In this document: piece after piece, positions 1-64,000 of the stretch | Position numbering within the stretch: the first letter of the stretch is position 1 | How the letters are laid out: every line of letters begins with the position of its first letter | Assembly (NCBI GenBank): GCA_030247885.1 | Contig: JAPDRO010000024.1 | Location: 310,001-374,000, forward strand | Length of the DNA: 64,000 nucleotides | Direction of reading: 5' to 3' | DNA from: Taxawa tesnikishii (nom. ined.) | Taxonomy: Eukaryota > Ascomycota > Dothideomycetes > Dothideales | Program-made: the position numbers and the translations under genes | Notes under the pieces: model-generated | What the model was told of the DNA's origin: nothing | The model's input: the letters and a program-made list of their open reading frames with translations, nothing else | The model's database searches: none

Positions 1-3000
1 CGGAGGCTGGGAGCCGAATATCCCGAACGGAGCTGTGGGTGGCTGGAGTCGCAGGGATGATCAGACGCAGACTCAGGCGCCCGGACCCGATGTGTGCTGG
101 GACCGGGATGGAACTATGGGACCTCTCGGCCTGGTGGACATGAGTGAGGAGGAGAAGGAGGTATGTTAGCATGGGTGCTGGACGGATCTTGTTTGGCTGA
201 GGTTTCTTCCAGATCTTCACTGGCTCCGTAAACTCTCCGCTCAAGCCTCCTACAACCACCAATAAGGAAGGCACCCCTAGGGAAGGAATGCTTCGCAAGA
301 TCTCTGTGTCGCAAAACGTCAACAGTCCTGGAGGCTATGGACTGAATTCCCCACCACGACTAGGCCAGGTGGTAGGCGCCGGGAGACCAGCGAGTCGTAT
401 CCTTTTCCTTCCAATGCCGTGTCTTCACCAGCGGCGAGCAAAGACCAGCCACGCACCACTTCGCCCCCTCCGGCCCTTGTCAGGAGAAGGACCGGAATGC
501 AGGAGACTACGAAGGCGGACGAGCCAGAGGACAAGCCGCCCGAGGAAGCTTCGGAGACTGCGCGCACGCCGTTTGGTGGCCTCAAGCGTAATCCCACCGG
601 TCCTCTGAGTGCGGGCTTAAACGGACCCTCTTCCCCATGGACCTCGACGCCACAAAGCGGTGGATTTTCGCCAATGGGTGCGTTTGGTAACTTTGCGATT
701 GGCACAGGTTCGGGGGCACTCCTGGTGCGCAGCGCTCCGGACTTGGAGCCGGTCGCGCCGAAAGCCGCTTCAAGGGACTTATGTCTAAAGACAGCAGTGA
801 CGATCTGGGCCGTGGACTGAAGGAGAAGGCATCACTCTCGAACCTGGGCAGGGTCAACGAAAGCGCTGCATGGCGCTCGCAGCAGGCTGAAGGCATCGCT
901 GAAGACGAACAGGGTCTGAGCGACGACGACTTGCCAACCGGAAGTGCTGCTCTAGGTGGCGGGCAAGACGTCAGCCCACCACGGCGCGGAAATGGCCAAG
1001 GCATTGGAACTCCAAGTCGCCAGGATTCGCGCGACGAGTTTGGTTTCGCTGCGTTTGGCATGACTTCCGACACTCCAAACTTCCAACGTCTCATGCAGAA
1101 CCAAGAGCAGTTCCAGCACCATACTCCAGTTGGACGTGGAGCCCACCAGCATCCTGGACAGGAGCCCATGAGTCCTACGGATACTAATCCCTATCAGAGT
1201 CCTGAGCAGCACGGTGCTGAACCTGACGACATCGATACCGATGGATCCGATGTTCAAAGCGGTCGTCTGCCTGGTCTTGGTGGATTCGGTAATGAGGGTA
1301 TCGGTGCAGGCGCCGGAGGTTTTGCCGGCCTTCACAATCTGGGCCGTGTACCCGCAGCTCCACCTAGTGACAGGAGCCAGACTTCAAGCGTGGGACCAAA
1401 CCGTGGCTTCTCAGGACTCAGCGGATTGGGAGCTCTCCCTGGGTTAGGCGGTACTTCTGCTTGGGGCGCCCCTCAGGGCAGTATCGGCACGCCTAACAGG
1501 GAGAGAGCTGGTCTTGCGGGTGGCTTTGGCCAGCATCCGTTCGGTTCAGCCGCAGAAACCCAATCGCCTAGCCTTGCCGGTTTGGGCCCCAGCAACATTT
1601 TCGGCCCACACGGAGGTAGCGCTTTAGGTGGAGGCCACGGCAGCAGACTGGGCTCTTTGTTCCCTCAGGCGATGCAAGACCAGATGCGCGGTTCTGAACA
1701 GGGCAGGCAGCCCCACGAAGACGACATCTCCGAGGGAGGGGTCGCCTTCTCTGCTCAGGGCAGCCAGCGCTTTGGAAACATGGATCCCAGCCGTGACACT
1801 GACAGCCCATTCAGAGCAGGCCGTGCGGGTGAAGCCAGCTTCGGCAGAGAGGCGCCGTTTGGCACGCTTGGTACCTCGGGTCAGATGCCTTCTATCACTT
1901 CTCCTAGCCAGGAGCCCATTGGACAGCGTCCTGCGCAGCCCTCGGCTCCAATGCAGCCACAACCAGTGGGCAGCTCCGCTTCAAACCAGCCACCTGCTGC
2001 TCAGCAAAAGACTATGGTCATGCCGGACAGGATGAGATGGATCTACCGCGACCCGCAAGGTGTCACTCAGGGTCCGTGGTCCGGTCTGGAGATGCATGAC
2101 TGGTACAAAGCCGGTTTCTTCTCACCGGAACTGCTTGTCAAGAAATATGAGGATCACGATTACGAGCCTCTGGCTCAGCTCATCCGTCGTATTGGAAACT
2201 CCCGGGAGCCCTTCCTGGTGCCGCAGATCGGTATTCCACATGGTCCGCCTGCTACCCAGCCCGGAAATGGATGGGCTGGAGCCGCACCACTGGCCGGCCC
2301 GGCCTCTGGAGCTCAACCGCCTTTTGCAAGCAGCTTCCCAAGCTTCGGCACCACTCTGACGGCCGAGCAGCAGAATGCACTTGAACGCAGAAAGCAGGAG
2401 GAGCAGTATCTTATGGCACGTCAGAAGGAGCATCTTGCGCAGCAACAGATCGCTCAGAGACTTCAACTACAGGGTGCACACAGTATTCTACCACAACAGC
2501 TTCACCATCACTCCAGCGCACATAGTCTGCACAGCCAGCCAAGCTTTGGCAGTATCACATCCCCAGCAGCCTATCAACCATCTCCCAGCCAAGGACCCGC
2601 ACCTGGTCAGCAACATGTGCCTGGGTTCTTTGACAACTCCTTCAGGGCCGGCCCTGTTGGAGGACTCGGTGCTGTCGGAGCTGGCCTTGGCCACATCCGT
2701 GAGGAGGAGATGCCGAGCATGCTTGACAGACTCAATCTTGGCCGTCCAGGACCGGGTGCCTTCGGAGGCATCGGACAGGGCTTCAACCAGCATCAAGACC
2801 CTATGCATACTCAGAGAGTCGATGCCATGCTCACCGATCGGACTAGACTCCAGCAAGAGCAAGCACAATTTGACGCTCAGCAGCGGTTTCGTCAGGAACA
2901 GCCGGCGAACAACGATCGCCTGCAGCAGTTCCAGGACCTTCAGGCACAGGCCAAAAATGATGCATTCGGACCAGAGGGCGTGATCGGACAACCCATCGCT

Positions 3001-4429
3001 CCACTCGCCGAGCGGCAACACGAAGAATTAGAGGATACCGAAGACCAAGAGTTTCAGGAAGATGAGGTTAACTCAGAGGTCGCTGCCGAAGAACCAGAAC
3101 CCGTGAAGGCACAGGAGCCTTTGTCCATGACTGAGCAGGTTCAGAAAGCTGTTTCCGCCAAACAGTCACCCGCACCACAGTCGCCGTGGGCTAAGGTTGA
3201 CACCGCTCTTCCTCAGCCATTCCCTCCTGCGCCATCCCAGTCGCCGCTCCCAGCTCCTGCTGCTCAGCGCAACAGGGCTAACATGGCCGATGCTTTGCAC
3301 ACGGAGTCACCCTCCCCATCTCAGACTCCATCCGTCGAGACGCCAAGCGCCTCCATCGCCCCATGGGCCAAAGAGCCAGCCGAGGCGCCCAGGGGCCTTC
3401 TCTCAAGGAGATCCAGGAGATTGAGGCCAAGGCTGCTGCTCAGGCCGAAGAGATCGCCGCGCAAGCTCGTCGTGCAGCTCTTGAAAGGGAGCTTGCTGCT
3501 CAAGCTCAGACCACCGTCCCGGCGCCCGGCTTGCCATCTAGCTCCACTTGGGCCAGCGCGTCCTCTCCTGCCATTCAGCCCGCTGCTACACCATCGGCAT
3601 GGGCCAAAGCAGCGAAGGCAGCCACCACTCCTAGCGCTGCGAAGACGCTGGCCCAGATTCAGAAGGAGGAGGAAGCGCGCAAGAAGCGTGTTGCCGTCGC
3701 CGCAGCTGCCGCAGCCGCCGCTCAGTCTCCTGTCGGTGGTGTCGCCGCCGCTCAGGTCGTTGGCAAGCGCTACGCCGATCTCGCTAGCAAAATCGCTTCT
3801 CCTGCGCCAGCTGTCGGTGGTGCCTGGACTACCGTGGGTGCTAGCGGAAAGGTCAAGACTCCCGCTGCTGTTCCCGCTCCCCCTCCACCCACCAGAGCCG
3901 TTTCGATGGCCACTCCGTCTGCGGCCGCGGTCAAGAAGCCCACTCCCAGCCGCAGCACCACGCTTGGGGGCAGTGCTGGTACCGTCAACGCACAGGACGA
4001 GTTCAAGAAGTGGGCCGTCAATGAGCTCAAGCACGATCTCAACAAGAACGTGATCGGTATGTTTCCACTAACCTTGTTTTTGCCTCTAATGTTTGCATCC
4101 GCTGACCACACACCACAGCCGAGGAGTTCATCAGCGGTCTCCTCAACTTCCCCGCCGACACCGAAATCGTCACCGAAGCCGTCCACAGCGTCTCCACCAC
4201 CATCGATTCGCGCCACTTCGCCGAGGAGTTCATCCGCCGCCGCAAGCTGGCCGACAAGGGCCTCGTCGACGCCAGTACCACGAAGTCATCCAGCCCTGCT
4301 AATGCCGGTCCCGGCCAGACGGGCGGTTGGAGCGAGGTCGCGAAGAAGGGTCCCGCCAAGGAGAACAAGGAGGACGTTTCGGGTAACTTCAAGGTGGTGG
4401 CGGCGAAGAAGAAGGGAGGCAAGAGGTAG
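1..4429 (+). CDS. GYF-domain protein (5' end outside the window)
   Basis: Large low-complexity protein with one GYF domain, a fold that binds proline-rich peptides (family of yeast Smy2 and human GIGYF, linked to mRNA and translation control). The domain is encoded at about 2034-2220 and shows WIYRDPQG, the signature GPWSGLEMHDWYKAGFF, and a basic tail. A conserved block near the left edge (about 95-160, PLGLVDMSEEEKE) agrees with fungal GYF proteins. Exons read as <1-160, 213-4056 and 4119-4429, with introns 161-212 and 4057-4118; the last exon ends KKKGGKR-stop. Glycine/proline/glutamine-rich stretches surround the domain, and a charged alanine-rich coiled coil follows about 3400-3720. The frame shifts three times, near 365, 712-716 and 3392-3395, each time as if one base were missing from a C or G run; between these points the frame is open for kilobases. 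The function is from the family; the family call is firm. Confidence 0.85.
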
Positions 4430-5031
4430 GGCCCCTTGCCGATCGAATCAGGGTGGCAAGAGGTAGATGATGCCTTTGCCCGAGTGGGAAGTAGTGTGAT
4501 GTCATTGAGTCGTGAAAAAGGTATACGGGGACAGTGGACTGAGGACCAAGGCATGCGCACTTGAAATGGATGGGTATTGCAGTCGTTGTTCGGCACGTTC
4601 GTTTACAGGACAAGTCAAGTACGAAGCATACATACTTTGGTGTTCACTTTCGTTACATTTTCGTTCACGGATCAAGCAAGCGCGGTGATACAAATCGGGG
4701 TATGTCCCGCCCCCCCGCCTCTCCTTTCCTGCGCCTTGAACTCCGCAACCTTCCCCCCCCCCCTCTATTCCAATCCCCTTTGCCGCGAGACGTGGCAGGG
4801 CCTCCACGCCGCCGATGACGGGACCAGCAGTCTCAGCACCCAGAGCTCTTCCTCCTCAACTTCGAACAGCCCGAAAAAGTCGGATGCGACAACCATCTAA
4901 AAAAATTGCCAAGGGAAAAACCCGGCATCGTCAAGCCCCCCCTCCTCCCCCCCTTCCCATTTCGGAGACACGGGGAAGGGGGTTAGGAGGCGTCGTCGGT
5001 CAAAAACGCGCACGACCCCAGTTCTCCCAGT
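4430..5031. other. convergent 3' intergenic region
   Basis: This stretch separates the 3' ends of two converging genes. It has C-rich runs (about 4750-4765 and 4940-4965) and an A-rich patch near 4898-4920. I see no gene in it; it probably holds the two terminators. Confidence 0.5.
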
Positions 5032-5936
5032 TCACAGAGTGGCCCACAAGTGCTTTGCGTAAAAGGAGCGGTCGAACCTGGCGGGCTCGAAGTCGACGAC
5101 GTGCACGTGCCCCCTTGCCGGGTTGCGCACGACGGCGCGGTTGAAGTCGCCCGTGGTCGCGTCTTGCTCGACGTCGACGCCCAGGCTGCGGTAGAAGTGC
5201 AGTTTTAGCCTGTTGGGTTTTTTTCCCTTTGTCAGTTTTGCGCTATTTCGACTCCGTGCTGATACGGGGGTTTTTGGGGAAAAGAGGCCCGGCGGTAAGG
5301 GGTGGGGGGGGGGGGGGGGGGGCGGTGAAGGATTGTACGGGGGGAAAGAGATTGAGATGTACGTACAGGGTGTCGTCTTCCGCGTCAGAAGGGAGGCGCG
5401 AGCCCTCGACGCCCTCGAGCTCGAGCGCGTCGAGTCGGGTTTTGAGGAGGCGCAGTTCGGCCTCCATGCGCTCGCCCTCGATTTCGAGGCTGCTGGCCGC
5501 TTTCGCGACGTTGAATTTGGCGTTGTCGAGGCCGCGCATCTGCTGTTCGTGGTCGGCGGCGTCGTGGTGCGATACCTCGTCCCGGTGTGATTGGGCGAGG
5601 TGGTGGAGGCGGCGGGATAGGGTGGACAGGGTGCGCTGGCTCTCGGATAGGCGGAGCGAGCGCGCGTTGCGCAGCGTGGTGAGGGATTCGGAGATGCGGG
5701 TCAAGGAGGAGAGGTCGGAGGAGGTGTGGAAGTTGGAGGTTGTTTGGGAGATTAGCTGGGTGCTGGTGTTAGTAAGAGGATTGTGGGGTTTCTGGAGTGA
5801 TGGAGGGTGGTGTGGGATGGATGAGGATTGGAGATGGGGATGGGAGGGAGAGGTTTGGCAATGCAAGCGGGCTGTTGAGGTGTGTAGATTGGGTATAGCG
5901 ACGTACAGTTACGGGATCTTCGTCGAACAGGACCAT
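5032..5936 (-). CDS. SPC24: Spc24, Ndc80 kinetochore complex subunit
   Basis: Component of the Ndc80 complex (Ndc80, Nuf2, Spc24, Spc25), which joins centromeric chromatin to spindle microtubules; Spc24 and Spc25 form the inner, kinetochore-facing end. Three exons: 5936-5907, 5755-5367 and 5209-5032, giving 198 residues, the usual fungal size. The short first exon encodes MVLFDEDPVT, a typical Spc24 start. The middle exon is a long coiled coil with the characteristic KAASSLEIEGERMEAEL stretch. The last exon encodes the globular RWD-like head: FYRSLGVDV, VVRNPARG, then a C-terminus ending FYAKHLWATL. Splice phases are 0 and 2 and the frame is intact throughout. It converges with the GYF gene and diverges from FIS1, with which it shares a 402-bp promoter. 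Intron 2 (5366-5210) carries a 19-base homopolymer. Confidence 0.93.
5304..5322. repeat. 19-base G homopolymer (C19 on the sense strand of SPC24)
   Basis: Nineteen consecutive G on the plus strand inside SPC24 intron 2. On the transcribed sense strand this is a C19 tract about 95 bases before the 3' splice site. Its length in the assembly should not be trusted. Confidence 0.9.
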
Positions 5937-6338
5937 TGTTGCGATGGATTTCCTTTCGGTTGAGGGAAAAGTGCACGTATGGTGTTTGCGCTTGATGGGG
6001 ACGCTGGTTCTTTCCTCTCGATTCAAAACGTGTAGAGCGCGTACAGTGTGTCGCAGTATACAGCAGTGGCAGTGGCAGTGGCAGTGGCAGCGTGGTGTAT
6101 GTCGTCGCGCTCGATTGTTCTCGCTTGGAGCACGGGATCAACAGAGTGCTGTTTTTGGTCTAGCGGCTTTTGGACCCTGAGCGGACGACGGATGAGGGAT
6201 GACGCACGTGTCTTCTGCATGTGAAGCAGGCAGGCAAGCACAAGCCACAAGCCACTGGGGTCAAGAGCTCGACGAAGGCAACGGCGACCATCTTCGTTCC
6301 TAAGACCTATACGAATCGCCGCCGCCGCCGCCGCCGCC
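5937..6338. promoter_or_regulatory. divergent SPC24/FIS1 promoter with two simple repeats
   Basis: The only space between the start codons of two divergent genes, so it must hold both promoters. It contains four to five copies of a TGGCAG hexamer at about 6064-6090 and (GCC)7 at 6318-6338, which abuts the FIS1 start and forms an almost ideal start context, GCCGCCATGG. No TATA box is obvious. Confidence 0.6.
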
Positions 6339-6966
6339 ATGGGAGATCATTTGCCTTGTGAGTTACTGTCGCATTTCCTGTGCTCTCCCAGTCGAGGTCG
6401 GATCACCAACACTGACCATGAACCTACCAGATGCTGCAGACGCGGAAAGGTATGCTGCCTGATCGACTTCCTACGTCTTCGTTCTCCTGTCCAGCTAAAC
6501 GCCCCGCCTGTCTGGACTTTTCTGACGGCACAATGACAGCCCGCTGAAGCCCGCAGAGCTGCAAGTCCTGCGCTCACAGTACGAAAAAGAAGGCGAATTC
6601 GTCTCGCTCCAGACCAAATTCAACTACGCCTGGGGCCTGATCAAGTCGTCGTCGCGACCAGAGCAGCAAGAAGGCGTGCGCCTCTTGTCCGAAATCTTCC
6701 GTTCCTCGCCCGACCGCCGGAGGGAATGTCTGTACTACCTCGGCCTGGGAAACTACAAGCTGGGGAACTATGCCGAAGCGAGGAGGTATAACGATCTGCT
6801 GCTGGATTTGGAAGTGAACAATCTTCAGGCGCAGAGTTTGAGGCAGCTTATCGATGACAAGGTTGCGAAGGAGGGACTGATGGGAGTTGCGATTGTGGGT
6901 GGCTTGGCTGTCGCGGCGGGCGCGGTCGGTGCTATGCTGCTGAGAGGGGCGCAGAAGAAGAGGTGA
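6339..6966 (+). CDS. FIS1: Fis1, mitochondrial and peroxisomal fission adaptor
   Basis: Tail-anchored outer-membrane adaptor that recruits the dynamin-type fission machinery. Three exons, two of them tiny: 6339-6357, 6431-6449 and 6540-6966, with introns 6358-6430 and 6450-6539, giving 154 residues, the family length. Family motifs visible: [27 protein letters not shown], the TPR-like segment [19 protein letters not shown], and [18 protein letters not shown] hydrophobic glycine/alanine/valine tail ([18 protein letters not shown]) followed by QKKR is the C-terminal anchor with its basic tip. The start codon fits the exon-1 peptide MGDHLPYAADAE and sits directly behind a GCC repeat. No frame damage. 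Confidence 0.95.
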
Positions 6967-7830
6967 GGGGGACATGGCGGAGCTGGATTGCATGAATCGG
7001 CATCTTCTCTAGCATGTGTTGATGGGGCAGAATGCATCGAAGGTGTATCCGAGAAGGAATCACCAGACGTACCGCAGTCTTGATTGCTTGGTACGTGTAC
7101 GACGTTAGCTGACATGTTCGATTACGGCGTTCAACATGGAGTTGGATTCACCCTTTGGCTGTTCACAGTTCGTAGCACACACCCTTGAGCAAACCTGAAA
7201 TCTGAAATCTGAAGTCTTAAATCTGAAACCTGATGGTATGTGACTCTTGCAGGCTACTGAATGACCCTCGCCAAGAGGTTGCTGCGCCAAATATAGAAGC
7301 TTCTAGGAGACTGTAACACACAAGACATGCAGCACGCACAAAAGAGACAGTGCCGCAGCAAGACACGACCGGGCGGCAAATCAAACCCGCAGCTGGCCAC
7401 GATCGGCGCGAGTTGAGAGTTGATCGAACAATAGAGAAAGTCGGCCAACCGCGTCTCCATCTAGCCTAGGGTTGTCCCAGCCACAGTGTGGCGTCTGAAG
7501 GAAGGAACGAAGGAAGGACGACCGACCGGTGACGTCGTCGCAAAGAGGGCAGTCACACTGGACAAAGAAGAACAAGAAGAAGTGCTCATCCACCGACAAC
7601 ACAATTTCCCTTCCAGCAGACCTACAACAAACATACCTGCAAACAACAAGCCCTACAACAGTCACCTGAGGATCGTCTGTGAAACCTAAGAAAAGCCTGA
7701 ACTTCCATCACTACATCCATCGCATCCGGATCAATCACGCTTGACCGGAGGGCGACGCTCCCCACCAACACCACGCTGTCTTTCTCGCCCATACTGAGCC
7801 AGGAGCAACATAACACTAATACCTGTCGCG
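6967..7830. other. intergenic region between FIS1 and the RING gene
   Basis: Contains the FIS1 3' end and the promoter and leader of the RING gene. An imperfect short tandem repeat of the type AATCTGAA occurs at about 7195-7225. Small open frames here are unconvincing; I see no gene. Confidence 0.5.
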
Positions 7831-9298
7831 ATGGACACCAATAACGCCAGACAGCAGGGCGAAAGGGAAATGGTCTTCTGCCATGAGTGCGAAAATGAGT
7901 GGTATAGAGACGAGCATGGGCTCACATGTCCTCAGTGCCACTCGGACTTCGTAGAAGTGGTGCGTATTGCAGTGCCAGTTCCCTCCGAACAATGGCTGAC
8001 TTGCGACCCAGATTGAGCGTGATCATGACCCGCGGGCAGAAATGCACCAAGATGAAGAGGAGGAAGACGACACCCCAGCTTTCCATCCATTCCACGGCCA
8101 CAACCCATGGGCAGAGCCAGAACATGTCCCAGACCCCGATGAGGGAGACATAGCGGCCCTGCCCGGCTTCCAGGTGCGCAACACAGGGCCAGGAACATAC
8201 CGCCTTACTGGCACTTTCAGGGCGGGAGCGATACCGCGCGGTCAGCAGGCCGACGGCGACGGCCGGATGCCGATGCCAGTCATGCCTCTCTTTGCAGATA
8301 TGCTGAATGGCATCTTGGGAAGCGGAAGACAACAAGAGGCGAACCCGACTCCAGCGGAGGCTCAGCAAGGGCAACAAGCGCAGAACAACGCTGGCGCACC
8401 ACAGGGCTCTCAGGAAGACCCGAATGCGCCGCATACACGCGTGCGCGAAGGCGGAGGGCCAGGCTTCAGATACAACATCACAACAACCACGCGCCTCTTC
8501 CCTCGCGATGCAAACAACCCGCAAGCTCCGCAGCAGCCCTTCGACGACCTACCCAACCTGCTCAACCAGATGTTCGCCGGAATGCAACCACCCCATGGCC
8601 ACCCGGGGAACGACCAGGACTTTGGGCCCGGTTTCCCAGGCGGCGGTCTGGGCCCCTTCGCCGACCTCTTCCAACTCTTCAATCCAGCCAACATGCGCCA
8701 CGGTGACGCAGTCTACTCCCAGGAAGCGCTAGACCGCGTCATCTCGCAGCTCATGGAACAGAACCAATCCGGTCGCGCGCCCGGTCCCGCATCCGCCGAA
8801 GCCATCGCCTCGCTGCCTCAGAAGACCATCTCCGAATCCGATCTCGACGACTCCGGCAAGGCCGACTGCTCCATCTGCATGGAGTCCGTAAGTCTTGGGG
8901 ACAAGGTGACCGAACTGCCCTGTCATCACTGGTTCCACGGCGAGTGCATCAAGGCCTGGCTGGGCGAGCACGACACCTGTCCGCACTGCAGACAGGGCAT
9001 CATGCCCAAGGACGGCGCGGCCGACGCCAATCAGGCCAGACGACCCGGCCAAGCGCCACGCCACGATCAGATGTGGGGCCAGGGTGAGGGCACGCGGGAG
9101 AGTCCTTTCATGGTTCCGGACAGCCCGACGACGACTACGACGAGACCGCCGCCCGGCAGCTTTCCCAGCGAGGATGCGACTCCGCAGCACGACGGCCAGA
9201 GCGAAGGCGGTAGCAGCGGCGGTAGCGGTGGCGGCCTCTTCTCGAGAATGAGAGACGCTTTCGGCGGCGGTGGCGGATCGTCCAACGAGCACAGGTGA
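7831..9298 (+). CDS. RING-H2 E3 ubiquitin ligase with N-terminal zinc ribbon
   Basis: Probable E3 ubiquitin-protein ligase of the RNF115/RNF126 type. Exons 7831-7959 and 8012-9298 (intron 7960-8011, phase 0) encode 471 residues. The N-terminus has a CxxC...CxxC ribbon (CHEC, then CPQCHSDFVE at about residues 16-42), as in the ubiquitin-binding zinc finger of that family. The middle is acidic and then proline/glutamine-rich. The RING-H2 domain lies at about 8866-8995: CSICMESVSLGD, then LPCHHWFHGECIKAWL and CPHCRQG, with all eight ligands present in C3H2C3 order. The tail is glycine/serine-rich with another Gly run just before the stop. Substrates cannot be read from sequence. The start is the first ATG before the ribbon. 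Confidence 0.88.
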
Positions 9299-11225
9299 AA
9301 GACTCTTTGATGAGAAGATTGCGAGGATCTGGTTTCATTGGCGAGTCTGCTTACGCCGAACAGCTCGACGAGGCCACCGAGCGAATAGAGTTCACGACGC
9401 AGACGCAACTCGCGGAGCAGACTCGACTCGACACGCTGGGAGAGGGATACGTCCCCAGAAGACAGCACGAGCACTTCCACCCCCGTCGGTAAGACAGGGC
9501 TACGGCAAAGGCTCTGGAATAGGTTGGGCAGATTGCGGAGCAGAGTTGGATCGAAGAGGGAGGAGTGAGCGTGAACGAACTTTTTGATACCCGTGAAGCC
9601 GTCAGTTTTTTTTTTTTGATGCGCAGCGGCCGCCGCTCGTGTCGGCCAGATAATCAGGCTGCTTCGTCGACGACCACGAGACCGATGCTCAGTGCTGCGG
9701 TTGGGGCGGCGCTAGGCTGGAGGACACCCGTGTCCGCGGGGTTCTATTCAGTAGCGTTGGACTTAGTCGAATCGGAAAACTATCTAAAGGCACCCCCCCT
9801 CTCCCTGGCTGGCGGAGCCGAAGTCCTGATGATTGATGCTCTCGCACAGCCCACGCTTCGTTCACAGATTTAATCTCGAGCTGGTTTTGCGAAATGGAGA
9901 AGGGGGTTTACCTCGTAGACTCTGCGATGGAAATACACAGGCGCATACAAAGGGGTTTTTCTTGCTGCACGTGCGCCTGTACTACACAGACCTAGCGACT
10001 TCTCTCCGCCTACTACGCACTTGTACTGATTCAGCATTGGCGAGATATTGCCAGCCCAGGATTGTTTCTCACCGCTTTTACTAGTGCTGAACAAATGATT
10101 CAAAAGGCTAGACGTGTAGAAGACCTAATATCCATACACTCTATGCAGGCTTTTAATGAAAACATTCTTGCATCAAAACATTGGAAATAAAAAAAAGGGG
10201 AGGACGGACCTCGGGATAAAAACGTCAGGTATGTAGGGAGGGTTTGTCATCGTAACGAACTGAAACATTCCATCCCGAATCAGTTCAGTTGGTATCTCGG
10301 TTGAAGAATTCTTGCTGGAAAAACACATCTAGTTGCTGGATATATCCAGTTGTTCCAAACATTCGAAATTTTCTGGAAAAAAAAGAATCAAAGCCTGACA
10401 CAACCTTTTCGCGTTGACGGCTACCCCTCCCTACTGACGTGATGGAAAGTTGCCTTTTCCCCTTTCCAGTAAACCCGTGGGGAATTTTTTTGTTGATATC
10501 GGGGCCATTCGTGCGTTTGTACGTTGGTGCGAGGAGCAAAACAACAGGGTCGACACGTTGTCCCGATGGTGGCAGAGGAAGATTCGCAATCAGTGCTGAC
10601 AGTGTTGGTTTGTTTTGCTTCCTCTATTGTTCTGTGAACGGGAGGGGGGGGATGTTCATCAGGCCATGCGGCGGGCGGACTCTGTTCTCGAATTCAGTGG
10701 TCTGTTGGGAGGTCATGTGCTGAGGCTCGCAACGAATGCTATGGCCAGGTGGCCGGACGAGCAAGCCACAGTCGACCTAACTTTAGTAACTTATCTATCG
10801 AGGATGTTTAAAGGGGAAGTCAGAGTTGATTTTACTTGTGTACTAGCGCAGCCTGGGCTTGGCGTTGGGATCGAAATCAGTGATGAAAGAAAGGGAAGAA
10901 GAAGAAGAAGAAGAAGAAGAAGAAGAAGAAGAAAGAGAAAGGATAAAAAAAGAAGCCAAAACTAGGATCTGGAAGAGCGGAAATTGAGAGAACGTTCTCC
11001 CATGAGGCTGCCATCCCCTTCCACCGTGGAGGGAAGTTTAAAACGCCCTTTCCATCCACCTGCTTGTTGACGCGAGCATTTTAGCAATCCATGCAATGCA
11101 CTAGAGAGGTGAAAAAAAAGGAACATAGTAGAGACCCGCAAAACCATGATCTTCAAACCCAACCCGAGCCGTGATTTCACGTTCCGTTACATCCAGGGCA
11201 TCCATCTTTAGGCACCAGACCTCGA
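9299..11225. other. long intergenic region with a GAA microsatellite
   Basis: About 1.9 kb without a supportable gene. It begins with the 3' end of the RING gene and ends with that of the next minus-strand gene. T and A runs occur at 9605-9616 and 10189-10196. The frames here start at non-ATG codons or are low complexity. Confidence 0.5.
10895..10933. repeat. (GAA)13 microsatellite
   Basis: Thirteen perfect GAA units, followed by a degenerate purine tail to about 10950. Purine/pyrimidine-asymmetric tracts of this kind are length-unstable. Confidence 0.95.
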
Positions 11226-12834
11226 TCACTGGCCGTCCAACTCCGCGTATCCGACGGGTTCACGCTGTCTCAGGAGGCGTTCCGTGGACCTGTCCCATCC
11301 GTCGCCGGCCCCGCCATCCCGCTTGAACCTGTCGAAGTCGCCGATCGCGTCGCCGCTTTTCTCAAGCCGAATTTTGACCTGGGCTCTGAGTTCACGCCTG
11401 CCACGAGTTCCGGCATCAGGGACGGGAAGGTGGTCCCGTAGGCAAGTGCCCGGTGCCATCCTTCCCCATCTGGGGCCGGAGATGAACAAGACCTCCCATT
11501 TGACGTCGTCGTGGTGGTCTTCTGCGTCTTTGGCGGACCAGCTCCCGTTGTCTCTTTGCTTCTTAACCTGCTGTTCCATCTTGGTCGAAAACTCGTCGTA
11601 GGTGAGGTTGATGGGGAACTCTCTGGTGTACTCGTGGAGCCAGTCGCCTGGTAGGTGCTCCGTCTCTAGCACGGTTACGAACTTGATCTTCACCTTTTCG
11701 GTAGGAGGTAATGGATTGGTGTTGGTGTTTGTGTTGGTGCTGGCGTTGTTGGCAGGTGCTCGCTGAGTGGCTTCGGAAACGTTGACGGGAGCACTGTGAC
11801 CAGGATGGGGCGGTTTTGATCGAGCGACTGGAATGATCGACTGCCGTCCTAGTCGAGACGGTTGTGGACCAATTCTGGTTTTCTTCTTGGCCGAGATGTG
11901 GGACGCGTCGCTGAGGTAGGAGTCGTCTTCTTCCCCGATCTGATCGCGAGACCGCTTTTCCGTGTGCTGCGCGTGCCGCGCATCTGGTGGCGCGGATGAG
12001 TGTCCCTTCATTGTTGTCTCGACGTTCGAATCGTCACGCATTGAAGGACGTGTCACATCCTGTCTCAGTGTGTCTAGGGTAGGAGCGGCGGAACTGAGAA
12101 GCGCATCACTGTTTTTGTCTGCTGAGACCTCTCCCGACACGGTACCTGGACTGATTTTGCATCAGCTCACTGCTCGTCAAAGACACGTGTTGTAGACGCT
12201 TACCGCTCCGTGATGTTCTTTGAGCTGGCAGGATTGTTGCGATTCTGTGCGCCCGGATGGGTCGCACCTCCACCCTGCTGGCTGATGTTGGTTCCGGGAG
12301 CTGCGCCCAACAATGATACTGAACCGCGTTCCGTCGTGTTTGGCGGTCGTGCCGACGGCTGAGCCGGGCCTCTCGTCGCCTGGATGGTGACTGCCTGAAC
12401 GGCAGGAACAGCCTGGTAGATTCTGATGAAGTGGGCATATATGAACTTGGTGTTGAAGTATGTGCCACTATTCCAACTTGTGGGATCGATGAGTGTCGCC
12501 CTACTGCAGGGGCGGGGTGATGGAGGTGGAAATGCACCTCAAGCTCTGCCGCGGTCTGCGGACGGAAAATGGTAAATGCCGTCGTTTCCAGTACCTGTAT
12601 GCGTAAGTTGGTGTATCTCGGGCACTTCATACTGCTATTACTGACCTGGTAGTCCCTCACGTTGTCTAGAGGTACAGCTACAGCATCGGAGTTGCCCTGG
12701 TACAGGAAAACGTGGATGCACCTTAGCTCTTTCGGAGCGCTAAGCAACCCTAAGGCTTGCTGCTGTGGTCCTTGCGGACGCGTCTCGCTCATATCCATCC
12801 TTGATGCGGTAGAGAGGTAAGTGCCTCCAATCAT
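11226..12834 (-). CDS. conserved-looking protein of unknown function, about 501 residues
   Basis: I do not recognise this protein. The best model has exons 12834-12646, 12594-12204 and 12150-11226 with introns of 51 and 53 bp. Start is MIGGTYL; an internal ATG at 12798 (MDMSETRP) is an alternative. The N-terminal part (CIHVFLYQGNSDAVAVPL, then LETTAFTIFRPQTAAELEV) looks globular; the middle has WNSGTYFNTKFIYAHFIRIY then a disordered proline/glutamine segment; then a basic KKKTRIGP motif and an Asn-Thr repeat. The C-terminus (KVKIKFVTVLETEHL ... KWEVLFISGPRWGRM) looks folded. Within exon 2 the frame must slip by one missing base at the C4 run (plus-strand G run 12509-12512); only then do both introns fit in phase. 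A nuclear role is possible from the basic motif but unproven. Confidence 0.6.
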
Positions 12835-16900: not shown

Positions 16901-17827
16901 TCCGACTATAATCACAGATGTAGGGTCGGGCAGATTTGAGTTCCGAATTGATCTGTGCGGGTTGTGATACAGTGCCAGAATGTACGCGACCGCTTCGTTA
17001 AGGTATTCGGCTTGATCCAGGAGCGTCTGACCGTGGAAAGCCGTAAAATCCTCATTGAAATCTACCGAGAAGAAATCTAGCGCGCGCTTGCCTGATTGGA
17101 GCGCATCTTCATCGTGTTGAAGGACGTCGTGAAAATAGTATGCTGCTTCGGCAGCGATTGGTCTGACCTGCTTGTAGCTGCCTGCATTACCTGGGATGAA
17201 GAGTACAGGAATTCCTTTCACCTGCACAGATCAGCTCTGCTCGAAAACAACCACGCAGTTTTGGTACCCTCGTATCCTCGTCTATTCCACCTTCTCTGTA
17301 CAAATAGAGTGAATACTTGCTAGCGAAGCGAGTATGTTCCGTATCAAAGTCGGAGAACTTGGCGAAAGCTGCGCGCATGTATGACATTGCGCATCCCTTT
17401 GGATCCAGTTGGCGAGAGAGAAACGATTGTACAATGACGAACAGGACCAGGAATGAAACAGCAGTCGAGACAAATGTCAACGGCGAGCATGACCACGGGC
17501 TGCGCAAACGCGCCCTCTGTTTCTTGTGCAATTCCGCCATAACTTCTTTGTTCTGCTCGTCTTCCGGGTTCTGATCCAAAGGCGCTTTATCCAGGGATTG
17601 GCGCGCCGTCGCGGATTTGGTCCACGATCCAATCTTAGGGGATTCAATTGACCGTTCACAGTGTCACCGCTTCTCCGCCTGGCGTGTTCTTTCATAGTCC
17701 CCTGTGGTTCGCCAAACGGCATCTTCAGAGACTCCTTGCTCTTCTCCGCATTACCGGCAGCGCTCTTTGTGAGGGAAGCTGAACCTTCATCATCCTCGGC
17801 GCCGGATCCTGAGGCTCTTCTTCGCAT
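13996..17827 (-). CDS. BST1: GPI inositol-deacylase (PGAP1/Bst1 family)
   Basis: ER membrane lipase that removes the acyl chain from the inositol of GPI anchors, needed for ER export and quality control of GPI-anchored proteins. Seven exons: 17827-17268, 17221-16372, 16323-15331, 15280-14926, 14871-14703, 14599-14373, 14218-13996; about 1125 residues, normal for fungi. An N-terminal membrane segment (FVSTAVSFLVLFVIVQSFL) precedes the lumenal alpha/beta-hydrolase domain with GIPVLFIPGNAGSYKQVR and the catalytic serine in VIIVGHSMGGIAARTM. The C-terminal half has repeated hydrophobic segments (LPLLFIALSFLAL, FFWFLVPLFGFISVGVCI, SLLVLMLWILPINIPVLVVW) typical of the family's membrane region. In exon 1, between about 17640 and 17670, the frame slips as if one base were missing; with it, exon 1 is exactly 187 codons and all later phases agree. 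Family call is firm. Confidence 0.93.
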
Positions 17828-21206: not shown

Positions 21207-21370
21207 CCCGCTTCCAAGTTTCTACTTCAAATGCATCACTGACACTTGACAGTCCATTCGGGCATTTCTCTTTGCGTTTCCTGTATATTAATTCCTAATC
21301 CTTGCAGGCCAACTGACTAGTTCAGCGTGCATTCGGCACCCCACAAGCATCTCCCTACAAACGCGTTAAC
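21207..21370. promoter_or_regulatory. short divergent promoter, IRC3 and the 21371 gene
   Basis: Only 164 bases separate the two divergent start codons. If IRC3 starts at 21050 the space is 320 bases. No recognisable element beyond pyrimidine-rich stretches. Confidence 0.45.
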
Positions 21371-22748: not shown

Positions 22749-23192
22749 TTTGGTAGGACGGAGGGGAGAGTTTCGTCGGCCTGATCGATTTACTCACGAT
22801 TTGAATGACTGAATGATGTATTATACCTTGGCTTTCACGCTGGAAGTTCTGGTCTTGTTCGAGCAAGTAATAGGAAGGAAATGAACAATATACTGACCAT
22901 CACAACACCAACTAATCATGCCTTGTTCCCGTGGGGTAGAACCCATCAATCCGCACGACCGACGGAGTGTGTTGTCTTAGATGAGAATTTGATCTTGCGA
23001 TGTGATTTCGTGATGGCTCATGGAAGTGCTTGACGAGCTCGTGGTAGGACAAGACGATCGACAATGACGCAATCAGTATAATTCATACCGTACCATCTCC
23101 ATTTCCCTCCTCTTCCATCACAAAACTCTTCTTCTAGTCTCTTACCCTCAACCCAGCCTAAGTTCCCTCCTTGCCTACTTGGTCTAACGACA
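22749..23192. other. intergenic region
   Basis: 3' end of the preceding gene and promoter/leader of the next. Pyrimidine-rich from about 23095 to 23190, as in many fungal leaders. No gene seen. Confidence 0.5.
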
Positions 23193-23680
23193 ATGCCGAC
23201 TCCCGCAGCCACTTCTTCCTCCACCGCAGTAACCCCAACAACCTCTTCCAAATACCAAGCCGCAAAAACAACCTTTCCTACCTCATCGACCCCTCCAAAC
23301 CCACCGCCGCCCCAACCCGCTTCCGCACGCGCGCCCTCCTCCGCACCGCCCGCTATATCGCCATCTTCATCTTCTGGCGCCTTTACCGCTATGCCAAGTA
23401 CGCCGCCGTAGGCGCCATCAGTGCCGCCGTCGCGGGCACTGCTGTCGGAACGTTGACAGGCGGACTGGGGTTCTTACTTGCGCCGACGGGAGTGCTGGGT
23501 GGCGCGGGCATGGGGCTTCTATGGGGGATGGGAAGGGTGGGGTGGGCGGGGTGGAGGATGTTGGCTCGTAGAGTCAGGTCGGGGCAGGCGGGTGAGAAGG
23601 GGGTGAGCGCGAGAGTTGATGAGAGGAGGGTCAGGGCGGAGAGGTTGGAGGAGCGAGGGGTTAGGGAGGATCCTTGGTGA
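23193..23680 (+). CDS. small membrane protein with glycine/alanine-rich hydrophobic core
   Basis: About 162 residues, function unknown. The ATG at 23193 opens a Ser/Thr-rich N-terminus (MPTPAATSSSTAVTPTTSS). The body reads NLSYLIDPSKPTAAPTRFR, then a hydrophobic aromatic segment (YIAIFIFWRLYRYAKYAAV) and a Gly/Ala helix-like region (AISAAVAGTAVGTLTGGLG ... GVLGGAGMGLLWGMG), ending in an Arg/Glu-rich tail. This arrangement suggests a small integral membrane protein, perhaps mitochondrial or ER, as an inference from composition. The N-terminus and body are in different frames; one additional A in the A5 run at 23264-23268 joins them into exactly 163 codons, so I treat this as one gene with a missing base. 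Confidence 0.65.
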
Positions 23681-25131: not shown

Positions 25132-26765
25132 ATGTCAGACAAGAAAGTTTTGTTCAATCTCCCCATGTCATTCCCAAGCATCACTCCCTTTGCTGTCATA
25201 GCTCTGGGTGTTGTGGCTGTCTTTCTACTCATCTCCTATCTGCTTGCTTTCCCACATCCTATTCCGGGCATTCCTTACGACAAAGCCTCCGCGAAGAGGT
25301 TGCTGGGTGATCTCCCCGACATGTTTCAACACATGAAAGAGACTGGCCAACTAGCGGATTGGTGGGGGAAGCAGTGTGTTAGGCTCAATTCACCCATCGT
25401 CCAGATATTCTCACGACCCTTTGGAAAACCATTCGTCATCCTCACCGATTTTCGAGAAAGCCAGGATATTGTGATGTGGAGGTCCCAGGAATTTGACCAA
25501 AGTACATTCTTCGTCGATGTCTTTAGCGGTACGCTGCCAGACCACCACAACCCCTGGCAACGGGTGAAGAGTTCAAAGCGCATCGCCGTTTGATAGACGG
25601 GACAATGACGCCAGCATTTCTGAACCAGGTGAGTATTGCCAGGACCCAGTGGATTGCCCTAGTTCCTGTTCTCAATCAGTCTCTCTTAGGTAGCTGTCCC
25701 TCTCATCTATGATGGGATGATGGATATGATACGGTTGTGGCATCTGAAAGCGGAACTGGCCAAGGACCACCCCTTTGAAGCCATCCACGGTGCCTCTCAT
25801 GCCACGCTGGATGCTGTATGGTTGGTAACGCTCGGCTCCTCGGTCAGTACCACTCAGCACTCAATCAATCTATTGGCCTCTCTACCTGATCTTGACCTGC
25901 CTGCGGGCGAAGATGCAGCAATCGAGTTTCCGAAAGCCCCGACTCGACTCTGCCTGGGTTCGAAGCAGTCGTCACGGTTAGCGGCCTCGTCCTGTCTCTG
26001 ATGCCTAAGCCGATCACGAAACAGATCGCTGATAGTATGGAGCTGAGGGTGTCTTCGCCCTTCCCTAGACTCCACCACTGGGCATATAGGCAAACTTGAA
26101 GATACAGGAACGCCACGGCTTACAAAGATGAAGCGATTGTCAGAGCCATACGGGTAACCCTTGGCAATCTCTCGCCGGAACGCACGGAAGGAATTGATAA
26201 GTCTGTCGTGAATCATATAGTGCATCGTGAACGCCTTGCGGCGGAGAAGGAAGGGAGGCAGCCACAGTAAGTAATGTCATTTCTAATCTCTCACCGCCTC
26301 GAATGAAAGCTCATATCAATCACAGGTATAACACTGGCGTAATAAGAGACGAAGTGTTCGTCTTCCTCATGTCCGGCTTCGAAACCACCTCAACAACGAT
26401 ATCCTGGGGTTACAAACTGCTCAGCGACCATCAATACGTGCAGAAAGGTGAGGTGAAGTTCGATGCCAGGGCTGGGCCTTTCATGGGGTTTGGAGTGGGG
26501 CCGAGAGGGTGTTTTGGTGAGTTCGGCCCGCTTCAATCCCCGTCTCCCTCATCTACAAAGGAAATGAGCCGTTGCTAACGGAGTCTGTCCAGGCAAAAAG
26601 TTGGCGTACATTGAACTGCGCACGATATTTGTTCTGGTCATCTAGAACTTTGAGCTCCGGAAGACGCCCGAGAATCTGAGCAGCTATCGCGCTATTGATA
26701 AAGGTACATGCAAACCAATGCAATCTTATGTACAGTTGAAGCCGATTATGAAGCCTACGGGCGAG
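25132..26765 (+). pseudogene. cytochrome P450 pseudogene with an internal deletion
   Basis: Remnant of a membrane-bound fungal P450 monooxygenase. The N-terminus has an anchor (FAVIALGVVAVFLLISYLLA) and the proline-rich hinge HPIPGIPYD. Exons can be followed at 25132-25628, 25691-26266, 26326-26516 and 26593 onward with good splice sites. Helix I is recognisable (FVFLMSGFETTSTTISW), as is the heme-cysteine loop (PFMGFGVGPRGCFG). The segment between them, about 26440-26460, is fused directly: roughly 100 or more residues including the K-helix ExxR motif are gone. In-frame stops occur at 26097-26099 (TGA) and 26643-26645 (TAG), both explainable by C-to-T or G-to-A changes. Two additional one-base slips lie near 25562-25564 and 25950. 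Without ExxR it cannot be an active P450. Its subfamily and former substrate cannot be told. Confidence 0.85.
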
Positions 26766-27211
26766 GAGGTCCTGAGGGACGGTTATGGAAGTCTTTGGAA
26801 TCAGGACGAAGCGCTGCTCAATGTATCTGATGGAGTGACGACAACGCATAGAGCGTACACGATTTGTAGGAAACGAAGCCGAAAGATACAACAACACCTT
26901 CGTGCTGCCTGAGAGTGCGGCGTCGCAAATGCGGCTGTTTTGGTCACAGTTCATCAGGAGCCCGCTCAGCGAATACAAGTTTGTGCAATATGACACAAGC
27001 ACGGTAACTTATCTCACTGAGCGGGAAAATCGCTACACGAGGCGCCGCCGCTGGGCGCGTACGGATAGCGTCCAGATACATCCAGTGTCTTTCCAATCAT
27101 AACTTCATGACTCACGAACGCACATGCGCCGTTCGAATTGGAACAGTCGTCTTGCGACTCCCGATCAGCCGGCTTGAAGCAGCGCCATCTTGTTATTTTC
27201 CTGGCCCGTTC
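26766..27211. other. intergenic region
   Basis: 3' flank of the P450 remnant and 3' end of the next minus-strand gene. The P450 frame runs on to 26912 but past the usual end of the family. No further gene seen. Confidence 0.45.
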
Positions 27212-58635: not shown

Positions 58636-60691
58636 GGAGGCCTTCCTAACACGGCAGGATGAGTGCAGGTGAGTTGATGGAACGGATGTGTCTTGGTGAA
58701 TAGGGTGTGTACCACATTCCGCAGAAGCTGCTGTTGGAGTTTGAATACTTGAAAGCGTGACTTTATGATCGTTTAGGAGTTTGTTGTGGTGGTGGATGAA
58801 GACGTAGGACCAAGATTGAGTTCAAGTAGGCAACTTACTTGGTGCTAAGCGAGTTACATTGCGACAAACGCTCTGTCCTTCACTTTTTAGGTGCAGCAAC
58901 ACATCCTTGGGCAAACTCCGATCTTGTACATATACTGGGGTACAAGCTTAGTGAATAAATCAGGCGGACATCGTAGATCCGAGAGGCGCTCCGAACTGTA
59001 TCCTACCTCTGACATGGCTGATCTTTTTCCATGTCTAGGTCAGCGCTAACCATATGCAGACCCATCTTTTTGCTTCACGAAGAAACTTCATGCTGCGAGA
59101 CGGCGTGACAAGTCTCAGCTACCAGTTGAATAGGAAGCCCAAGAATAGGTGAAAAGCATTTAATTGTCTGTCTTCTAATTGCTGCTTCTACGGTTGCTTA
59201 TATCTATCTGACTACAAAGAGCTGGTAGCAAGCAAATCAAACAGATATTGCAATGAAATGTCTTAGCTCATCTTGGGAGTCTGGCTGCATGGTTTGCTAC
59301 CGACGTGAGTCTTGTTTATGATGTTCTGAAAGGCCTCCTTAGGCGAATGTTTGGAGAAGTCATCTGCGAGATCGTCACTAGAGTCAAATCTCAGAGTGAC
59401 AAGTCCGCCTTCTTGCACCTAGCAGCGCACCCACAGGAAAGAATGGCCCAGGAAGAGCTTTGGGACACACATGTCATGTATCTGAGGAAAGAATCACCAA
59501 TACAGTCGAGCTCAAAAGAGCAGCATAGGTTGAGACAGGGCTCGGGATACTTCAGTATCTGCAGGTGCTGGGCTTCGGACGGTTCAATCTGACTCTGTGC
59601 CATGTGTGTGATGCTTCTAGACTAGCTTGAGGGCATCTGGTGATTGGAGTCAAGAAAATCCTTTGTCTGGAAGTGTAATGTCTCTCGAATCTCAAGTCTC
59701 AGTATGGCTTTGTCGTTCTCGAGATGACGCGTTCAGCTTTGGACAAAGAAACCGGGAGCAAGACTACAAGCAATCATATAGTAGGACTCCATACCACACG
59801 CCACCAGTCCGTGAACTGGCTCAATAACACAGGCATTCGTGGATAGTGCAAGACTATGCACTGCTTCAATGAGGGATTGGATGCATCAGCTAGATCTGCT
59901 CTGCCCCTATGACGCACCGTTTCATGTCTTCGAGTATGGTCCATCCACTGCATACACAGAGCTTAAGAAGACTACTACATGCCACACGACAAGTTGTCTC
60001 GCTTGAAAAGCTCGCAGGCACGCGGCTGCCTCAGAATCCTCTCGACGAACTCATAGCAACAACAGCAGTAGTGGAACAAAGCTCGAAACGGTGTACGGCA
60101 ACGTCTAGTGGCAGCCAAGATACTAATGATATACAGTCTGACCGTCGGCCAACAGAAGCAAGCGCAAGTTTGAGCGGCGGCAAAGACTTCTGGAACTTAA
60201 GTCAAGAAGCAGATCACTTGTACTGCCTTACAGGATCCCATTGGTACTGGACGAAGAGAGCAAAGAAGGGGATCTACCAGCATGGCGCGAGCAGCCACGA
60301 CTCGGGCGAGGGGCTGCAAAGCAGCAAGGGCGGAAACCCTCCTAAAACCCTTGAGATATTCAGCAGCCATCGCACGGGAGTGGAGGAGACGTCAGTGCAC
60401 ATTATGCCAGGTTCTGCAGGAGACAATGGCCAGCACATGGCGGCAACAATAAGACCAAACAGGCAGTCGCTATGCGCTATCACGCGAACACAATAACATG
60501 CTCACACATGATGTACAGGCTTGCGTCATTACGTGTATCACACATGTAGACCTTAGGACTATATAATCGCTCCGAGATCTCGGACAATGGCTATTGATCA
60601 GTTGATGATTCTCATGTAAATTCAATACAAACAAGTTATTTCTAGTCACTCACCAGCCCTATTATGTAGGCTTCGCACAACATTGTCCTCA
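58636..60691. other. gene-poor region with one weak frame
   Basis: About 2 kb. The longest frame is 59909-60496 (plus, 195 codons from an ATG); its composition is polar and repeat-free and no domain is visible, so I leave it uncalled. The rest shows nothing. Confidence 0.4.
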
Positions 60692-61544
60692 ATGCCCCAG
60701 CAGACGGTGACCCCTGGCGGGAAAGTCGAGACTCTTGTGCAACGAAGCGCTTTACTGAAAATTGGATGCGAGACTGCGAGTACGTAAAAACTTCCTTTGC
60801 ACTGTTCACCCGCAATTTGAACTTCTATATCTGTTTTGCGGCTGCCTATCAAAGTCTTGAACAAGCCACTAATGTACTTTCAGTCGCTTTCGAGGAGTGT
60901 TCATCACAATATCCGTGGGGCCGAACAACAGGCTTTACGAGAAGCTACCTGCCTACTTGCTGTGCTTGCATTCAGAATACTTCTTCACCCTTCTCAAAGG
61001 AGAGTTCAAGGAAGCACACAGCCCTTCCCTGGAGCTACTGGATGAAAAGGAAGAGGTGTTCGAGCTCTTCAACTTCTATGCTGTGGAGGGATACTTACCG
61101 CCGTTCCTTCGGTTTGATGACCAGCAACTTCAGATTCCCAATCCGGAGATGAGGGCAAAGCAAGATCTGGCTTACCTGACCTCTGCGTACGCTTTCGGAG
61201 AGAGACGCTCTGCGCGAGGATTCATGAACGCGGTCATCGACCGCATCATCCGAACCTGGGCGCACAAGTGGGTTTTCTTCGACAGTGAAACCTTGGACGT
61301 TATATACGCCGAGTGTTATTACACTCCACTGCGAAGACTAGCGGTAGACATTATGGCTACCTCCTGCGATACAAAAGCCCACTTGCAACAAAATGGAGAT
61401 CTCTGGCCCGCCGACTTTGCGCAAGACGTGTTCATGAAGCATATGGACCGGTTGGACTCGGAGTCCCGACTGCATGCGGTTGGACAGCATGCATGGTTGA
61501 ACATGAGTACATGCTCGTATTATGTCCATGCACAGCAGCCGTAA
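60692..61544 (+). CDS. BTB/POZ-domain protein
   Basis: Exons 60692-60783 and 60884-61544 (100-bp intron, phase 2) give 250 residues. The core is a BTB/POZ fold, a dimerisation and Cullin-3-binding module: VFITISVGPNNRLYEKLPAY, then LLCLHSEYFFTLLKGEFKEA, and LDEKEEVFELFNFYAVEGYL, in the order beta-strand, helix pair, acidic loop, helix pair seen in fungal BTB proteins. After it come AKQDLAYLTSAYAFGERRSA and a helical remainder with no second known domain. Fungi have many such stand-alone BTB proteins, few characterised. The frame is intact. It is the only plus-strand gene in this end of the window. Confidence 0.78.
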
Positions 61545-62516
61545 GTCAGACCCCGTCATGGTTTAGCAGAATCATATCGTGACAAAGATACTGAGATGCT
61601 CGAATATAGTCAAGACTCCGGTCCCATGGGACCACTCCAAAGACCGGACCAACAACGCATTGGAGGCGCTTCATAGGAAGAGACGGGTGCCGTCTTGGAA
61701 ACAAACAGGGAACCTGCAATGGAACATAAGAATTGATTGGGATGCGGGTCAACGGCAGGAGATTTTGATCTTTCCAGACAGATTGGTGGACTGTCATACC
61801 GTAGATTGGCTACATGTTGTTGATGGTTAGCTTCTTGTAGTGCTTTTGTCAGATTAGCTCCACAAACAAGAGGCCGGTCCCCGTCATGATCCAAACGGAA
61901 AGAAAAGTTCTAAGTTTGTGACCCACGCTGAGATCGTACGCCATTGGGCGTTGTGTGCCGTTACACGATCACAAGTTGAGGATACATGGATTGATCAGAG
62001 CAGTAACCCTACATGTCAAAGTAACCAGTCTCATCCACCGCAGTCTTGTTCGTCAACGGGCTCAGGCATTGCATTGTCCGGAACCGGAATTGAGTGCGGA
62101 TGAGTAGATCAGAATTGGGTAGGTGGCCTCTGTGGTTTCCTTGTTGCGCATCTCTCTGTTCCGTATGTGTTGGAGATCGAGGGGCCGGACTTGGCTGACG
62201 CATCTCTGGACTGCAGAGCTCACATCGATATCGGCTGCTTCAACATCGTGACACAGGGTACGTGTGGGGACTGGAGATTTTCAACGAGACATGGAGTTGG
62301 ATTAATGCAGATCCAATCTCTGGTTCCTCTAGGTCAACATTGCCCCTCCTTCATCAGCTCTCTTTTCCCTTCTGACGCTGAACGTGCACCGTGTCATCAA
62401 CAAGAGCGGTGAGGAGCGCTGTTTGGCGCCAACCTTCTGTAGTTTGTCCTGGTCAAGGCGCTCTACGTTTCTCCCCAAGCGGAGTGCCTGACCTTCGGCA
62501 GTCTCGTTGCATCCTT
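61545..62516. other. convergent 3' intergenic region
   Basis: Between the 3' ends of the BTB gene and the transcription-factor gene. No supportable frame. Confidence 0.5.
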
Positions 62517-64000
62517 TCAGACTGTGCAAAAATCTGCCATTGACAGTAAGACATTTCTCAGCTGTAAATAGTCTTGACCAGAGAGCTCTTGTTTGCTGGC
62601 CACGCTGCTCAAAATGTGGCCGACGCCCGCGAGTTTTCTGAGTAGTGGTGATCCAATGGCGCGGACGTACTCTGGCGGGATCGTACTCATGCTAGCAATC
62701 ATACGTTGAGCTGTTTGGCAGGCGCTCTGAATACTGGCTTCCTCAGAGATGAATGCGAGCATCCTCACTAGATGAATGGGGCAGAAGATGTTGGTAGCCT
62801 GGAAGCCGCATCGATTCCTGCCATTGTCCGTGGAACCCGGAAAGGCCTGACTGAATTGAGGAAGCAACCTTTTCTGCACAGCAGACAATCGATCAAGAAC
62901 CGAGGCCGTCTCAACCTGAGGCTCGCCACGCAAAATTGTGCCATGCGGGCCGTGTGTGTTACGCGTAGTCCTGAAGCTCACAATGGCATGCTCGAGTAGT
63001 CTGTAAAGATCAGTAGTAGCGTTCCATCCAGAGAACCAGTCTTCAAATTGCCCGTCTCTTCCGGCAACGAATGCCGGGTGATGAATCCCAGAAGGATATT
63101 CTACGCTGCATTGTGCCTCTGGTATGCGGATCAGATGACCCACCACGCAAGCTGTGTGGACCTCGATTCGGTACATCGCTCAGAACAGCCTTCTGCGCAC
63201 TTCTACCTTGCACACGCTGAGCCCTGGCGGCCAGCGCGACTCGTCGTTGAAAGCTTTGCATCCGGACAAGCCAAGATACAACCCAAGATACCTGTGCACG
63301 AGATCAGTGTTTCCGGTTTGTGTTCCAAGTAGTGCCAGAAATCCATAGCTCCGGATAAGATCCAATTCTGTGTGGCTGGTGAAGTCAGCAGGAACCAGAC
63401 GGATGGCTTCAGCAAGGTAATCCAGGGCAAAGGTTGTACAGTCTGCCGGTGACAGTTCATCGCTGAATAGAGCTCCGTTTTCTGCATGTTGCGCACTGAG
63501 GGCACACGTCGCCATGAGGCTCATATAGTCCGAGGGCGTGGCGGGAAAGGTGTCATCTGTCCAGCCTACATAAATCTCCCTCTCGCAGTACAGTGGGAAG
63601 CTGGATGCTTAGCAGACGTGGAAGAACTGGAAGCAATGGATAACGTACATAGGATGCACAGTATCGAGGTACACGTCCAGCAGCGAGGTAATAACCTTAC
63701 GATTACGCAGATTATCGGGCGCCTGAATGCCTCCTCCGAGCAGCGGAATGCATTGAGGCTCTGACGTGGATGCAGGTGCAGGTGTCGCTAAGCTTGCTCC
63801 TGTAGTACGAGGTTTGGTACTCTTTTCTTGGGCTGCCTCAGTCGCGTACATAGTTGGCCAAATTCGATGCACGGAAGGCAGCTAGGCGTTTCTTTAGGCC
63901 TGGTGCCACTGCTGATATCTTCGGCCGGCGGCTGTCTGCATTTCAACCCACGCTTGTGGCACCAGTCGCAGGCTTGTGTTATACGACGCTGATTTCTTAC
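62517..64000 (-). CDS. Zn2Cys6 fungal transcription factor (5' end outside the window)
   Basis: GAL4-type regulator. The zinc cluster is at the right edge (about 63965-63845): QACDWCHKRGLKC gives Cys-x2-Cys-x6-Cys and CLPCIEFGQLC gives the second triplet, followed by a basic linker QPKK. The intron 63648-63601 (48 bp, phase 2) joins VHPI to FPLYCEREIYVGW, the usual start of the fungal-specific regulatory domain (middle homology region). Later family blocks are visible: DLIRSYGFLALLGTQTG and EVRRRLF...MYRIEVH. Two defects: a one-base slip in the A4 run after the zinc cluster (plus-strand T 63823-63826), and a TGA at 63180-63182 exactly where the conserved RRRLFW has Trp. After it the frame continues for 220 codons to 62517. 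It may be a recent pseudogene or carry base errors. Target genes unknown. Confidence 0.82.

Follow-up and report, generated by a model that had tools for sequence, protein, structure and literature searches.

The window analysed here, a stretch of 64,000 nucleotides (G000:C17:310001-374000), is part of C17, a contig of 558,687 bases in the JES_119 assembly of Taxawa tesnikishii (nom. ined.), a member of the order Dothideales whose deposited proteins H2203_008580 and H2203_008581 are on a contig of that same length. It carries a GYF-domain gene, a PGAP1-like gene, a P450-like gene, a TPR-repeat gene, a mitochondrial carrier gene and unnamed genes on both strands, with 14 sites at which the reading frame has to be shifted (Table 1). 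Scans of the 64,000 nt with Rfam and for tRNA found nothing. The assembly examined comprises 34 contigs and 29,367,862 bases; the available text of the JES_119 genome paper gives 38 scaffolds and 29,383,553 bases, a largest scaffold of 2,828,030, equal to our contig C1, and an N90 of 558,687 (PMC11195213). On C1, four copies of GAAAAAAC at a 24-base spacing occur at G000:C1:1351-1430 and at G000:C1:2826634-2826713, on opposite strands. This array near both ends is probably a subtelomeric tandem repeat, and its presence at both suggests that C1 may be a complete chromosome. The same contig contains a 10 kb locus (L003, G000:C1:100001-110000) with 23.3% G+C, against ~52-54% for the genome.

Table 1. 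Frame breaks and related features of the window. Initial positions are those of the sequence-only reading; blind calls were made without its list; 95% sets are flat-prior sets.
Feature	Positions	Strand	Basis
GYF-domain gene break 1	349..365	+	initial position 365; placement model prefers C4 run 349-352; homolog offsets
GYF-domain gene break 2	712..716	+	G5 run; exact match of P0001; blind call
GYF-domain gene break 3	3392..3395	+	G4 run; exact match of P0001; homologs; blind call
Unnamed-gene break	12490..12539	-	G4 runs 12509-12512 and 12514-12517; hand-read frames; 95% set
PGAP1-like gene break near start	17571..17660	-	initial position ~17655; hand-read frames; 95% set 17571-17651
Unnamed-gene break, weak	23160..23268	+	hand-read frames; placement model ~23165, initial position A5 23264-23268
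P450-like gene break 1	25526..25592	+	frames, placement; model's top choice C4 25551-25554
P450-like gene break 2	25918..25952	+	frames, placement; model's top choice C4 25937-25940
TPR-repeat gene break 1	35551..35601	-	initial position 35600; blind call; 95% set
TPR-repeat gene break 2	36414..36437	-	initial position 36419; C4 36433-36436; 95% set
Break under deposited intron	40570..40612	-	G4 40584-40587; frames; P0121 skips most of 40545-40603
Mitochondrial carrier gene break	42772..42776	+	A5 run; exact match of P0124
Intron of deposited carrier model P0125	42809..42912	+	exact blocks of P0124 against P0125
Break upstream of open frame 48949-49854, weak	50170..50309	-	hand-read frames; 95% set
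Break in gene reaching window end, weak	63788..63882	-	hand-read frames; 95% set
Sole window stretch with runs of at least six	4710..11119	.	16/16 runs; clusters 4710-5344 and 9606-11119

The sequence-only reading had claimed 14 one-base breaks, and every frame change does fit one missing base, with the proviso that a gain of two bases would look identical. The flanking frames were set by hand from translations, open reading frames and protein alignments at 11 sites, while three of the 14 were also called blind. Proof is base-exact at three sites, through proteins of the same organism, supported by homologs at one, and a matter of reading frames at the remaining ten, which would be of the same nature by analogy with the proven sites. 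Protein families place some of the breaks within recognisable genes: PF07819 is matched downstream of the ~17655 break in the PGAP1-like gene, and TPR families are matched in 34467-35600. For the P450-like gene, PF00067 was found in one of five pieces searched with Pfam (26231-26575, downstream) and a solved-structure search with the first piece gave no match, so that the support for both breaks in this gene comes from the frames and the coding signal. The least secure of the 14 are those at 23264, 50174 and 63823, where the genes have no Pfam match.

The most direct evidence comes from protein searches, which returned two proteins of source 'lgn', a label that we take to mean Logan, encoded on other contigs and 100% identical to frames of the window. 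P0001 (1323 aa, contig of 23,315) matches the GYF-domain gene in the exact blocks 497-715, 715-3396 and 3396-4463, and P0124 (215 aa, contig of 18,578) matches the carrier gene in the blocks 42473-42775 and 42775-43116. All residues of both are accounted for with 0 substitutions, one window base being reused at each step. The closest other protein to P0001 has 71% identity, and P0001 must therefore come from T. tesnikishii. It is thus proved that at 712-716, 3392-3395 and 42772-42776 the window is one base short while the other assembly is in frame. The 'lgn' source is probably a short-read assembly.

Homologs were compared across the same breaks in sets of 120, which include P0001 and, for the carrier, P0124 and P0125; exact offsets count as evidence in this comparison, the remainder modulo 3 being set by the frames chosen. 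At the 3392 break, 114 of 120 homologs span the site and 113 of these 114 are offset by exactly -1. Of the 120, 28 reach across the first GYF break (365), and 23 of these 28 are offset by exactly -1. At 712, 98 of 120 span and the offset is exactly -1 in 11 only, because the alignments are gapped there. At the carrier break (42772), 119 of 120 match in both frames and the offsets are scattered (-1 in 5).

The sign of the breaks was assessed with a caller that is built on a three-periodic order-4 coding model, allows for intron-like gaps and makes no use of the list of 14. It was trained on the 304 kb that it scans, namely the window and loci L004-L027, leaving out the AT-rich L003 and the short L001 and L002. 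Thirty breaks were called, 26 having the sign of the 14 sites and 4 the opposite one (binomial p = 6e-5). When 69 indels were simulated, the caller recovered 27 of 45 deletions and 15 of 24 insertions and gave the wrong sign to none, which indicates that the sign bias belongs to the sequence itself. Three of the 14 sites (712, 3392 and 35600) were recovered, so the caller's counts are lower bounds. Random indels would give both signs, and 26 of 30 breaks of one sign led us to reject them as an explanation. An earlier, codon-only caller, applied to the window, gave three changes of the expected sign (35601 directly; 3297-3306 and 36436-36441 over short gaps); the change at the 36419 break was seen over a 6-base gap by this caller and was missed by the second one. 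It also gave an opposite-sign change at 5243-5252 (10-base gap), which the second caller replaced with a gap of 177 bases (5186-5362), as an intron would give.

The four opposite-sign breaks are counter-evidence to a reading of the sites as under-called bases. One (L021 2664) is sited at a GAA/GGA repeat, another (L023 5785) spans a gap of >30 bases, and a third (L022 1343-1349) has an A5 run on one side and a T5 run on the other, and a pair of separate losses there would mimic a single gain; for the last (L027 3263), no cause is visible in the sequence there. Elsewhere in the sample, three same-sign breaks occur inside ~600 bases of one gene (L015 8721-9768), and a membrane transporter gene (L022 4119-6098) has two.

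It had further been stated that most of the sites are short homopolymers. If runs of at least 4 are meant, this is true of 7 of 14 at the coordinates first given, and of more once the positions are refined from the coding signal. The flat-prior 95% sets of the 14 sites contain a run of at least 4 in 13 cases against 5.3 expected, and those of the 26 blind breaks in 18 against 8.1 expected; none of 2000 random draws reached the observed number in either test, the two having three sites in common. With breakpoints fitted to the coding signal, the 26 blind breaks correspond to 0.22, 1.33, 16.1 and 27.9 breaks per 1000 coding runs for observed lengths of 2, 3, 4 and at least 5. A model in which the rate depends on run length has a log-likelihood 15.7 above that of a per-base rate, whereas the gain is 0.55 to 4.93 in six controls with random deletions. 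Around the raw breakpoints of the caller, runs of at least 4 are not enriched within 5 bases (4 against 3.3 expected), and they number 10 against 5.7 expected within 12 bases and 14 against 7.9 within 20. Since the enrichment is seen at 12 and 20 bases and is absent at 5, we consider the raw breakpoints accurate to some 20 bases only. The placement model is itself inexact: for several sites it prefers a run ~10-30 bases off (for example to C4 25551-25554 rather than GGG 25562), it prefers the wrong run at the carrier, where the true A5 is known, and it places the 23264 break ~100 bases upstream. The 95% sets lack a run of at least 4 at 8 of the 26 blind breaks and at 1 of the 14 sites, and a homopolymer cause is therefore not needed for every loss.

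A shortage of longer runs is also seen across the entire genome. In the 304 kb sample, each added base multiplies the run count by 0.185 to 0.235 over lengths 2-5, counting only G/C runs flanked by A/T and A/T runs flanked by G/C. Genome-wide, the ratio of runs of six to runs of five in these classes is 386/7357 = 0.052 for G/C and 1840/14991 = 0.123 for A/T; runs of six are thus scarcer than the decay of the shorter runs of the same genome predicts. Counted over the whole genome without regard to flanks, G/C runs total 747 at length six and 136 at length seven, and A/T runs total 3839 at length six. Within the window, the 57,590 bases outside 4710-11119 contain no run of at least six, against 9.0 predicted from the genome density of runs of six (Poisson P = 1e-4, with the limits of the stretch picked after viewing the data). 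No break falls in 4710-11119, either among the 14 or among those found by the caller. A consensus corrected in some parts and left uncorrected in others would give such a pattern. The two clusters of this stretch have more runs of seven (8) and of eight (4) than of six (1), unlike the whole genome, and a G19 run lies at 5304-5322 inside the first. A further cluster of long runs, at G000:C17:290418-291779 (L023), has 6 of the 8 runs of at least six in 50 kb of sequence surrounding the window.

Two deposited gene models are affected. The deposited carrier protein P0125 extends to 42808 in the frame that P0124 leaves at 42775 and then skips 42809-42912; P0124, from the same organism, translates through 42809-42912 and contradicts this intron. 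In the deposited P0121, most of 40545-40603 is passed over (59 bases, three of them in a split codon), across the 40584 break. A homolog, P0122, is aligned from 40571 onward in the downstream frame, so that part of the P0121 intron looks coding and an intron within 40545-40603 is doubtful.

Programmed -1 ribosomal frameshifting is a known recoding system with an apparent -1 shift at runs, and it could be supposed that the DNA is right and that in many genes the ribosome rereads one base. The direction of the shift fits, and several of the breaks are in runs where slippage is plausible. The proposition had been judged unlikely from the outset, and we reject it, according it practically no credence: the DNA of other contigs encodes P0001 and P0124 continuously at the three sites tested, which excludes it there, homologs from other species are continuous across these places, recoding would be required in ten unrelated genes of one window, and the shortage of runs of six was counted genome-wide, beyond genes. 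Recoding restricted to one or a few of the ten frame-only breaks, as true sites scattered among assembly errors, also seems very improbable. The losses could instead be real deletions, either in pseudogenes or because the sequenced culture differs from that behind the 'lgn' contigs. Homopolymers commonly lose bases in nature too, and the 'lgn' contigs may stem from another isolate. Such an origin is nevertheless hardly credible, given that the genes are otherwise intact, with 1323 and 215 residues free of substitution, and that the same-organism copies are unbroken at the three sites tested. Decay would moreover give both signs, against the 26 and 4 observed, and the genome-wide drop in counts from runs of five to runs of six would be left unexplained.

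A more mundane possibility is that some of the ten frame-only sites are no breaks at all and reflect introns that went unrecognised, short exons or a wrong choice of frame. At 23264, 50174 and 63823 the frames were judged by eye, and the caller missed 11 of the 14 sites and put the 23264 break ~100 bases away. We regard misread frames at some of these ten as unlikely but worth keeping in mind; they could not account for the four protein-backed sites or for the excess of one sign across the 304 kb. The breaks are almost certainly errors of the assembly consensus, in the form of under-called homopolymers, and not biology. This cause, which the sequence-only reading had favoured, is corroborated by the one-sided sign, the clustering of breaks at runs of at least four, the shortage of runs of six and the read-through of P0001 and P0124; the other eleven breaks presumably share it with the three proven ones.

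The way in which the genome was produced offers a plausible cause of under-called homopolymers. According to the available text of the genome paper, JES_119 was sequenced with Nanopore at 194.58x (basecaller guppy 3.4.4) and Illumina at 25.38x and assembled with MaSuRCA, and its table of complete BUSCOs gives 97.4% in the row labelled Illumina against 92.9% in the row labelled Nanopore (PMC11195213). The main text of that paper makes no mention of frameshift, indel, homopolymer or Pilon, and its lone 'polish' concerns protein alignments (PMC11195213). We propose that the errors stem from the Nanopore share of the consensus. Nanopore reads under-call homopolymers, and the short reads would have left the consensus uncorrected over most of the window; many runs would thus be one base short, and each base lost inside an exon would produce a one-base frame shift. 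A hybrid assembly, as described, should have fixed such errors, and this counts against the artefact. The kind of artefact is already well known. In the portion of Kastor available to us (PMC12007338), gene-fragmenting indels of long-read assemblies are likewise frame-breaking single-base consensus losses that split otherwise intact genes; the present case differs in that the assembly is described as a Nanopore and Illumina hybrid and in that at least one deposited model bridges a break by an intron rather than stopping at it.

This case shows that a reading of the bare sequence is able to diagnose assembly quality, and the run-length spectrum provides a read-free test for under-called homopolymers. 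For T. tesnikishii, the public gene models are affected, and comparative work on its protein set may inherit the errors.
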